Shown here: positions 2,189 to 21,511 of the stretch, one piece after another
How positions within the stretch are numbered: the stretch's first letter is position 1
Layout: every line of letters starts with the position of its first letter
Assembly: GCF_037975245.1 (NCBI RefSeq)
Contig: NC_092574.1
Coordinates: 20,965,713 to 21,029,712 of the forward strand
Reading direction: 5' to 3'
Length of the DNA stretch: 64,000 nt
Origin: Apostichopus japonicus
Taxonomy: Eukaryota > Echinodermata > Holothuroidea > Aspidochirotida > Stichopodidae
Made by a program: the position numbers and the translations under genes
The notes under the pieces: model-generated
The model's database searches: none
What the model saw: only the letters and a program-made list of their open reading frames with translations
What the model was told of the DNA's origin: nothing

Positions 2189-5100
2189 ATGAAGCCTCAA
2201 ACAACTAACTTTGATCTCTTCAAGATATCTCACTACGTATTACTTCTCGGATCATGTATCGGTGAGTATATCATTCCTGTTAATACGTTGACAAGTATTA
2301 TGAGATTATCAGGTATATGAGAAAGACTTGTAATTTTGAAATTTATTTTGTACACTCTTTTGGAAAAGGAAAACTTTAATGTGAATGTTAGTTTTAACAC
2401 AGATTAAGACGCTCTTAGTAAATTTTCAATACATCATTTGTAAACTCCCGTTATATAATATCTTTCATTTAACCTTTTCTACACGTGATCATTTCTGACT
2501 TCAACATGTGTGTGGGAGACAAAATGTGACAGCAATAAGCCTCGATTCGATGACATTCCAAAGTGGATTGGTGTTGGGGAGCGGGGAGGGCAAGTGGGTT
2601 AAAGCATGGAGCTATAAACAGATAGCTCCATGGTTAAAGAAACCATTTTGGGGGAAAACTTTTGGAAGAGCCAAAACGCAGCTGTATAAAGTGCAGATCC
2701 CTTGAAAATTTCGAGGGACGGGGAAAACCTCTTACTCCTACCATCCCACGCTTAATCGGTGAACGAAATTTTAATTTTAGCGAGTTTAAAGCACAGCAAA
2801 ACGGGAGATTAACTATTTTGAAGATTACGTATTATTACCCAAATAAGGGACATAAGGGAGAATGTTTGTTTTACCGCCACAGACTAGGAGTTGGTGTGCC
2901 AAAGGGGGGGGGGTGCACCCACTTCCCCCTGGTACTGCCCCATCTGATGGTACTGATGGTCATTGTATACATTGAATATTTGACATGACATATTTTTTTC
3001 TCTCAAGCATCGATATCGTGTGGATCTGATTGTAACGACTTTGGCTTAAAGAACATAGCAACCAATGAATACGACGGGGACTGGGAATTTTATTCCTTCG
3101 GCAATATGGGTAAGCTAAAATTATTTTCTGGTGTCTGAAGTTGATAATATCGCAAAATTGCTGATAGATTGCTGAATCATAGGCGAGAACCATATCCTCA
3201 TAGCGTGTTTGTGTCGTGAAGATATGGATTGTTTCCATGGTTGTGATATTTTCTAAATGAATCTAACAATAGCAGAATGGATGATGTCATCAGGACAGTT
3301 CAGCTGAATAAAAGTGTTTGTTTTATTTTATAAAACGTCAATCACTTATCCACAGATGTAAACAGATTCAGCGTTATGCAATTCTAAGTACAGAGCTAAG
3401 CAAGCATTCAAAATGTATCAGGTTGTATAACGATAAATCTACAATAACAATATAAATGAGTTATAGTTTTTGAAGAGCATTTACCCAGAACACATCATAG
3501 ACGTCCTAATGTGATCCAGTTTCCTGGAGTAGCTTAACAATTAGCTAATCACAATATGTTACAATCAATCAACCATATCTCCAGTTAGGAACAAGATACT
3601 GAGATAAAGTTTCTAACATGCAGTTTGGATTATTTGTCTGTTCCATTTAAGGGTCGTATGGACTGCCACCGGAAAATTCCTTTAAGTAGTTTTCGAATTT
3701 CATATGGTTTCCTACGTTAGTCAAAATGGTTGCTTATAGTTTTTTTTACCGCTTACTTAATACTCGTTTTGATTATAAGGGGGAGGGGGTCGCTCTATTA
3801 CAATGATTGTTCGCTTTTACGGTTGTTGCAAGTTTTCGCATCAGCATTAATTATATGCATTGTGTTTGCCGTTTTTTAATTTAACACTCATTCATTCTTG
3901 TCTGGAAGCAAACATTTCAACGTTGAATGGAAGGTCGGGGAGAGGGTTGGGGTAGGGAGGAGAAGGAAAGGGGGCGGGGAGGTAAATAATCACCACTTAC
4001 TAAATACTCGTTTTTATTAAAATTCGGGAGAGGGGTTATAGGGTGTTGAGGCGGTGGAGAGGGGGAGGATCGGGAAAGGTTCAGTGCTGAATGTCAATAG
4101 TGCTGGTAAACCTTACTTGTCAATCTCAGACACAAAAATCCTCGGAATGCAACATTTGACGTCAAACTTCATTACCCTGGCGGGGAAGTCCTCCGGACCC
4201 CGTGATAGGAGTACGGCTACATACACCGACCTGCGGCCGCACTCCGTCCCGTATAGCATCTGGCCATTAAATAAAGATACATGTCTCCACCTAAAACTAA
4301 TCTGGCGAGATGAAAAAATCCCAACCCCCAGTCCTACCTCACCTTTCAAATCATGTGCAAGTTAATGTCTTGACGTCTGTGGAAAGACCTGCTAAGATTG
4401 AAACGTCAGACCCTCTATCACTTGTAACATTTTTACCTTTTATGAAGTTGATAAGCAGTGTGAGATTAAACGTGCAAATTAAATATCTTACAGAGTATAG
4501 AAGGAAAGAAAAAAACTATATAAATGTAATCAAATTTGATACATAGCGATAAAGATCTCATAATGTAATAATTATTGCATATTATAAATTAAATAAAATA
4601 AAAAATACTCAAATATTTGCCTGAGTGGTTATATTAATAGCTAAAGTACATTGTTGCATGCATGTGTGTGGCTGTTGTTTCAATCAACGTTAAACGTTAT
4701 AGCATACATTGTGGATACGATCACACGTCATACGTACTGACGTTAGGTCAGACATGCCAATGAGCACGTCAATGTTTGATTTAACATTTGACAGTCATCA
4801 CCTCCAAATAACATTAATAAAGATAATTTTCGAGATTCATATAGCCTATATATATATATATATATATATATATATATATATATATATATATATATATATA
4901 TATACATATATATATTGTATGATGAAAGACTTCAGTGCTCTATATTTCACTACGAAGGTTATCGCTGGACCAAGTACAACGTTGTTTATTTCTTATCTTC
5001 TCAACAGATACCAGAGATTGCTTCCTATGTGCCAGATGGCAATCTGATGAGCTGAAGATATTTGAGCTACTTGTCCCTTGTCTGCCGGAGGATGCTACTA

Positions 5101-21100: not shown

Positions 21101-21511
21101 AATCAATTGGTCAATCACCATGGTGATGTAAATGACGAAATGGTGTACAATGGTGACCCTAAATATTACAGTATAGAAGATGGAGAAGTGAAAATATATG
21201 CTCTGCCTTATCAGGAAATGTTTAACAATCGTGATAGTCATGAAACCGTTGACAGGAAAGCAGCTAATAAAAGCAAGAAAACTTTGAAAAATAATCATCT
21301 TAAAAATATCCAACATACAAATAAATCTTTTGAACAGATTGATAAGGCTAAAAGGAATGGCAAAATGGTCAATGAGGCTTCGATTAAAGAAGAGAACGAA
21401 TATTCCAAAACAATATTCACTGAAAAGAAAGAGGCAGTTGTATTCTGTGACAGAGGGCCTCGGTATATAAACTACAAAATTACCGGGCATACCTCTAGTT
21501 GGAAAGCTTAA
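15146..21511 (+). CDS. Putative single-pass membrane receptor, tandem copy 2 (eight exons, 412 aa)
   Basis: Exons 15146-15218, 15811-15912, 17220-17533, 18825-18891, 19301-19330, 20141-20215, 20577-20682 and 21040-21511 total 1239 nt, exactly 413 codons including TAA, with consensus GT/AG sites. Order and phases match copy 1, except that the stalk exon at 9175-9270 has no counterpart: its remnant near 20525-20545 lacks an acceptor and follows a 157-bp (TA)n tract. Because flanking phases are both 1, skipping it keeps the frame. It has a signal peptide (residues 1-25), the same seven ectodomain cysteines, a shortened stalk, a transmembrane helix at about 229-251 and a 158-residue lysine-rich tail. 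Tail tyrosines include [19 protein letters not shown] (a YxxM motif of the kind bound by PI3K SH2 domains), EYSK and YINYKI. Three AATAAA signals follow about 95-110 bp after the stop. This copy looks the more intact. The C-terminal 40 residues appear to be a contracted, frame-shifted remnant of the copy 1 tail array. Confidence 0.74.
16076..16985 (-). mobile_element. 5'-truncated Penelope-like retroelement
   Basis: Spans the GIY-YIG region plus a purine/pyrimidine-biased 3' UTR ending in gatcctgctaggatcgaaac on the minus strand. The junction at aacaat (16075) corresponds to uninterrupted sequence near 3270 in the paralogous intron of unit 1. Confidence 0.7.
16456..16973 (-). pseudogene. Penelope-like element, C-terminal GIY-YIG endonuclease region
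   Basis: The minus-strand frame opens with [19 protein letters not shown], then a Cys/His cluster ([13 protein letters not shown]), then [20 protein letters not shown] and [11 protein letters not shown]. This order (nLRD-LVR, zinc-binding cluster, YLI for GIY and FVG for YIG, R-x3-H) is the linker and GIY-YIG nuclease of Penelope-like retroelements, which nicks target DNA for reverse transcription. A stop and frameshift near 16545-16560 separate the main 125-residue frame from the usual C-terminus ([18 protein letters not shown]) ending at 16456. The reverse transcriptase is absent: the copy is 5' truncated near 16985. It lies antisense in intron 2 of receptor copy 2. Confidence 0.78.
17930..18217 (+). 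mobile_element. Palindromic miniature element, copy B (288 bp)
   Basis: Same family as 10902-11210, opposite orientation, in intron 3 of receptor copy 2. Flanked by aagagaa at 17923-17929 and 18218-18224. The paralogous intron in unit 1 shows the uninterrupted target (aaagagaacgg near 5750), so this is a true insertion. Confidence 0.78.
18560..18744. repeat. (TA)n-rich tract, intron 3 of copy 2
   Basis: TA repeat broken by TATAAA and TGTA variants, followed by ATTC/ATTT repeats, just before exon 4. Confidence 0.9.
20328..20485. repeat. (TA)n microsatellite next to the lost exon of copy 2
   Basis: About 78 uninterrupted TA units, the longest pure run in the window. It lies where copy 1 has the approach to its seventh exon. 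Confidence 0.9.

Follow-up and report, generated by a model that had tools for sequence, protein, structure and literature searches.

Paired receptors, in which shared ligand-binding exons are coupled to divergent tails, are best known in vertebrate immunity. Three papers describe the systems closest to the one considered below. In primate CD300A and CD300C, gene conversion is reported to preserve the ectodomain, a member of the immunoglobulin (Ig) superfamily, while the tails diverge; CD300A inhibits and CD300C activates (PMC12447643). The fester co-receptors (FcoRs) of Botryllus are an invertebrate-chordate multigene family of type I proteins, encoded by clustered copies, which combine variable Ig, Sushi and C2 Ig domains with tails carrying a core Y-x-x-I/L/V and, in some cases, immunoreceptor tyrosine-based inhibitory motifs (ITIMs) or hemi-immunoreceptor tyrosine-based activation motifs (hemITAMs) (PMC12065747). 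The teleost novel immune-type receptors also form type I clusters, with divergent Ig ectodomains and mostly inhibitory tails built on tyrosine motifs, for the most part ITIMs (PMC2442602). Here we analyse genes A and B, a tandem pair on the forward strand of a 64,000-nucleotide stretch of the Apostichopus japonicus genome (contig NC_092574.1, our C14:20965713-21029712; hereafter the window), together with their paralogues in the same assembly (671.6 Mb, 35 contigs). It is nearly certain that A and B fall within a genuine family of type I receptor-like genes and likely that this family serves the recognition of variable ligands; the further idea that its members function as paired receptors do, through tails with opposing outputs, is a reasoned but tentative guess. 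As a whole, the explanation that we favour, a multigene family of type I transmembrane (TM) recognition receptors organised like paired receptors, stands in our judgement about evenly between right and wrong.

The family resembles each of the described systems in part. As with CD300A and CD300C, its members are related type I-like receptors, and one pair (C1 and C2, below) likewise shows a conserved ectodomain with differing tails; it departs from them in giving no Ig match, and opposite outputs are in this case something we infer. With the FcoRs it shares type I topology, a multigene organisation, Y-x-x-I/L/V tails and clustered copies, but it carries a six-cysteine domain where they have Ig and Sushi domains. 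The teleost receptors offer the same combination of type I clusters, divergent ectodomains and tyrosine-motif tails, but the A/B family is without an Ig match and strict ITIMs are rare in it. We have not filed these genes in a known receptor family because the defining Ig or Eph domains were looked for and not found, and a search of titles and abstract openings, within a limited collection and set of terms, found no previously described family for these receptors. If the favoured explanation is true, the paired-receptor design would have had an independent origin, on an unrelated ectodomain, in an invertebrate.

Both genes were rebuilt from the DNA. Gene A runs from an ATG at 2189 to a stop at 10630 (nine exons, 354 residues) and gene B from an ATG at 15146 to a stop at 21511 (eight exons, 412 residues); all frames are fully open, the introns are GT-AG and the phases are identical exon by exon, A having in addition a 96-nt stalk exon (exon 7, 9175-9270) without counterpart in the model of B. 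These models bear out the tandem paralogue pair, with 17 exons and matching phases, that a preliminary description of this DNA had proposed. Exon 1 (2189-2261 in A, 15146-15218 in B) holds the start codon and a hydrophobic segment that is alike in A, B, C1, C2, C3 and a copy on chromosome C2; hydropathy (1.43 in A, 1.41 in B) is the one feature that points to the signal peptide named in that description. The ectodomain starts in exon 2 (3008-3109 and 15811-15912), which is its most conserved portion and contains cysteines 1 and 2; exon 3 (5008-5315 and 17220-17533) is its fast-evolving core, with cysteines 3 to 6, and exon 4 (7283-7349 and 18825-18891) its final stretch, with cysteine 7. A Ser/Thr-rich stalk follows in both genes (in A, exon 5 at 8061-8090, the Ser/Thr-rich exon 6 at 8704-8808, and exon 7; in B, exon 5 at 19301-19330 and exon 6 at 20141-20215) and leads to a single strong TM helix, as claimed before, encoded by exon 8 of A (9967-10072) and exon 7 of B (20577-20682), with best 21-residue Kyte-Doolittle means of 3.15 and 2.80. 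The last exon encodes a short cytoplasmic tail with VYNPVYE (an NPxY motif) and EYNII in A (exon 9, 10453-10630) and a short-type tail of 157 residues in B (exon 8, 21040-21511).

This architecture is more than chance because it recurs, with one additional stalk exon, in paralogue C1 on a different chromosome (C9; 651 residues), and because A and B resemble each other more closely in exons 1 and 2 (94.5% and 97.1% identity) than at aligned intron sites (86.4%). The duplication that gave A and B reaches 5' of the start codons, in blocks of 75% and 85% identity; no further copy was seen in the remainder of the window or in the preceding 30 kb. Elsewhere in the genome, searches with the core of A exon 3 and with a D ectodomain brought the number of ectodomain loci to nine. 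Besides A and B, these are one broken copy on chromosome C2 and six on C9, where C1, C2, C3, D1, D2 and D3 lie within about 105 kb. The ectodomains of D1-D3 are 26-28% identical to that of B. D2 and D3 (C9:2439861-2466379) have TM and tail exons that are identical where compared, 26 kb apart, which marks a recent duplication. The tail is spread more widely: 233 residues of the C1 tail gave at least 40 matches, which we grouped into at least 18 loci. Two of these are the window genes, six belong to the first C9 cluster, seven lie at C9 13.31-13.47 Mb, C15 contributes two and chromosome C2 one. Within the second C9 cluster (C9:13456001-13470000), an EGF-like exon (21.5 bits, at the Pfam cut-off) precedes the same stalk-TM-tail module, and the one 9.3-kb, partly masked stretch of C15 that was read showed no related ectodomain exon 5' of the tail.

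Six cysteines are invariant in all seven ectodomains whose exons 2-4 are open (A, B, C1, C2, D1-D3). The seven that had been counted in A and in B are present, the seventh being confined to the A/B/C clade, and D1-D3 keep six of the seven. None of these ectodomains has a significant relative in Pfam, where the Ig family matched none of the seven at a limit of E 10 (a threshold at which the HMMER filters discard most weak matches) and the ephrin-binding domain PF01404 likewise none, or among PDB sequences in profile and single-sequence searches (best E 0.36 and 1.3, at chance level), in agreement with the earlier view that the ectodomain is of no recognised family. A Pfam match to Self-incomp_S1 (E 0.13, in one of the seven) is also at chance level. 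The order of cysteines and hydrophobic strands is similar, by eye, to that of the Eph ligand-binding domain, but an Eph-like jelly roll obtained a probability of 0.2% when hhalign compared the seven ectodomains (six kept by the program) with EphB2 and with the genome's own Eph domain (a single match, elsewhere, on C11); the ectodomain profile is shallow (an effective number of sequences of about 2), so this failure does not exclude a common fold with Eph. That the genome-wide search gave one Eph ligand-domain match suits an invertebrate better than a vertebrate. Structure prediction, another of the checks first proposed, was made by AlphaFold2 for exon 3 alone (B with A, two sequences) and gave a strand-rich model whose mean predicted local distance difference test score of 43.9 is too low to rely on. 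The Pfam matches obtained on A and B, to TMEM154, RELT, CD34 and others, cover stalk, TM and tail stretches and are taken as composition: in A, TMEM154 (PF15102) scores 24.3 bits against a curated cut-off of 30.3 and misses the ectodomain core, and in B a plectrovirus transmembrane family exceeds its cut-off (E 7.4e-06) over the same kind of sequence. Viral contigs scanned with B exon 3 gave no match, and a sea-cucumber neuropeptide pattern, tried as a marker of the host, had 0 matches.

The ectodomain, it seems, evolves more quickly than neutral DNA. In exon 3, A and B show a synonymous divergence (dS) of 0.088 and a replacement divergence (dN) of 0.241; since aligned introns differ by a Jukes-Cantor distance of 0.150 (347 differences in 2552 sites, one transposon match excluded), replacement change outruns the neutral yardstick that they provide. 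A pairwise codon likelihood gives exon 3 an omega (dN/dS) of 3.30 (2dlnL 7.2, p 0.0073, one among seven exon tests), and the in-frame codons of exons 1, 2, 3, 4, 6 and 8 pooled (239 codons; split codons, exon 5 and A exon 7 were excluded from all codon tests) give 2.82 (p 0.0007). Taken singly, exons 1, 2 and 6 have no usable synonymous change, and omega tends to infinity (p 0.23, 0.16 and 0.016); exon 4 gives 1.04 (p 0.96), exon 8 2.65 (p 0.11) and exon 9 0.77 (p 0.60). For the TM exon only the A/B comparison was usable (dS 0.134, dN 0.241), and those with C or D genes were dropped; overall divergence is 0.057 in exon 1 and 0.030 in exon 2. By codon position, the exon 3 differences number 23, 20 and 12; positions 1 and 2 exceed the introns (p 0.0047) and position 3 is not significantly different from them (p 0.77). 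Two 60-nt stretches are hypervariable, at 5135-5194 (about residues 101-121 of A, 33% divergent from B) and 5255-5314 (about residues 141-161, 32%); neighbouring and intervening windows show 3-17%.

Exon 3 also groups differently from the tail. Its tree divides the C and D genes from A, B and the copy on chromosome C2 (support 1.00), whereas in the tail tree A joins C1 (support 0.98). The exon 3 sequences of C1 and C2 are 99% identical, against 82% for A and B. Across four adjacent 250-bp windows, which cover this exon and sequence 5' of it, C1 and C2 diverge by 0.4-2.4%, compared with 4.8-5.6% in the windows flanking the tract and about 5-30% elsewhere in the gene. C2 and C3, for their part, are near-identical over the stalk, the TM helix and the beginning of the tail. 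Both low-divergence tracts look like the products of gene conversion.

The tails fall into two types. The long type is best displayed by C1, with 11 of its 15 tyrosines in YxxV/I/L over 324 residues (shuffled mean 2.46; none of 5000 shuffles as high), and by D1 (C9:2420847-2423741), with 26 of 32 over 956 residues (maximum 14 in 2000 shuffles), where a 225-nt (75-residue) unit is tandemly repeated in 7.7 copies and eight YxxV-x10-YxxV/I pairs occur, of a kind also present in C1; the TM and tail exons of D1, read from the DNA, retain the family intron phases. The D1 tail is an unusual signalling scaffold in itself. The short type is common to B, C2, C3, D2 and D3. The tail of A is of the C1 type (90% nucleotide identity where their common beginning is compared, and 85% for B) and, like that of C1, contains the NPxY motif, which none of the B-type tails read has; the reading frame of A ends at 10630, and the rest of the tyrosine-repeat tail that is open in C1 persists as interrupted, out-of-frame remnants at 10631-12552. 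Within them lies one of three copies (10902-11170, 17930-18190 and 51214-51530) of a palindromic element resembling a miniature inverted-repeat transposable element. Each of the three paralogue sets seems therefore to mix one long-type tail (A, C1, D1) with at least one short-type tail, the assignment of D ectodomains to tails being made by gene order and, for D1, by phases as well.

We propose that exons 2-4 encode a compact six-cysteine ectodomain whose loops, supplied by exon 3, bind a variable ligand, that the stalk displays this domain, and that the cytoplasmic tail determines the output. The YxxV/I/L arrays of C1 and D1 would be phosphorylated and would recruit SH2 or PTB proteins; the short-tailed B, C2, D2 and D3 are without an array, and neighbouring genes that share related ectodomains would thus signal differently, as paired receptors do. 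Gene conversion and selection would together reshape the ectodomain, and the proteins, presumably located at the cell surface, could serve in defence or in the distinction of self from non-self. The organisation of the genes is consistent with this proposal, given that neighbours carry related ectodomains (A and B; exon 3 of C1 and C2) and differing tails (the array of C1 next to the short tail of C2, whose model is incomplete; the C1-type tail of A next to the B type). The recognition role put forward in the preliminary description gains real, if indirect, support from the selection between A and B, the clustering, the conversion-like tracts and the tyrosine arrays of the relatives; its argument from phosphotyrosine motifs in A and B themselves does not stand. 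A more ambitious version, which we consider doubtful, would see here a paired-receptor system evolved by an invertebrate on its own, with an ectodomain fold without known relative, array tails of up to 956 residues and 26 motifs next to short-tailed partners, a ligand-binding exon copied by conversion and a tail module coupled to EGF-like ectodomains as well. Exon 3 would lend itself readily to the search for a ligand and to surveys of polymorphism.

A number of observations weigh against the proposed recognition system. The tails of A and B are not tyrosine-rich in the manner first described: A has three tyrosines in 59 residues and B eight in 157, and YxxV/I/L motifs do not exceed those of shuffled sequences (p 0.053 and 0.71), unlike in C1 and D1; nor is the excess significant in C2, C3 and D2 (p 0.31-0.37). 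Many YxxV/I/L motifs are of the non-strict kind, strict ITIMs ([ILVST]xYxx[ILV]) numbering none in D1 and, by reading, two in C1. Neither TM helix, in A or in B, contains a charged residue such as would recruit ITAM adaptors, so that B does not show the charge expected of an activating partner. As to selection, besides the seven tests among which exon 3 was one, positions 1 and 2 of this exon do not differ significantly from position 3 (p 0.057), and its replacements are not significantly clustered when shuffled in 12-codon windows (p 0.065). Its dN/dS is 1.84-3.11 in the four pairs that include A and 0.81-1.41 in the six that do not (1.2-1.4 for B/C1, B/C2 and the copy on chromosome C2 with either C1 or gene C2; 0.82 for B with that copy and 0.81 for C1/C2), and as the high ratios are limited to pairs with A, the burst of acceleration may be specific to the A lineage. 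Some family members are broken, namely C3, the copy on chromosome C2 and the C15 tail, which holds a stop; gene C2, rebuilt in part (exons 1-4 and its TM and tail exons are open), has a stop in one stalk exon.

Several other accounts of the same anatomy can be considered. The receptors could act in gamete or tissue recognition (allorecognition), with a conspecific surface molecule as ligand; anatomy and selection would then be the same, and the excess of dN over dS, the hypervariable stretches and the conversion-like tracts are expected equally. The FcoRs, type I proteins with comparable YxxI/L/V tails, offer a precedent, but they have Ig and Sushi domains (PMC12065747), and no Pfam match for these was obtained here; we regard this possibility as unlikely, though worth keeping in mind. 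That the genes are decaying duplicates, in which relaxed constraint and conversion from diverged donors mimic acceleration and no recognition role persists, is improbable. Some of the evidence fits such decay: exon 3 of C3 has a stop and a frameshift, exon 2 is broken in the copy on chromosome C2, and the long tail of A is out of frame past residue 354; the lower exon 3 ratios of pairs without A would also fit. Relaxed constraint alone would however bring omega near 1, compared with the pooled value of 2.8, exons 1-2 are more conserved than the introns, and the frames and splice sites of A and B are intact. Improbable too, finally, is an engulfment or scavenger function in which the NPxY motif and the YxxV arrays of the tail would drive particle uptake, in putative analogy with CED-1, Draper and MEGF10: the NPVY of A and C1, the YxxV-x10-YxxV/I pairs of C1 and D1 and the EGF-like exon of the second C9 cluster are in its favour, but A and B match neither EGF nor EMI in Pfam, and the B-type tails read contain no NPxY.

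The remaining features of the window concern the borders of the two genes and its repeats. Judged by sequence only, a TATA-like box lies 5' of gene A (2043-2048, forward strand), its counterpart in B being altered; AATAAA polyadenylation-like signals occur 3' of gene B (21605-21620, forward strand). tRNA-Cys-like sequences at 7081-7155 and 48203-48277, each within a longer repeated unit, probably belong to a tRNA-derived short interspersed nuclear element. On the reverse strand, open frames at 35880-37121, 38330-38761 and 39895-40680 resemble what we take to be fragments of the reverse transcriptase of a retrotransposon lacking long terminal repeats (non-LTR), and at 63300-64000 on the forward strand an endonuclease-like retrotransposon part, recognised by reading, continues past the window end. 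At 42290-42720, also by reading, ATGACATAATGGCCCA-like units are repeated in tandem in an irregular array.

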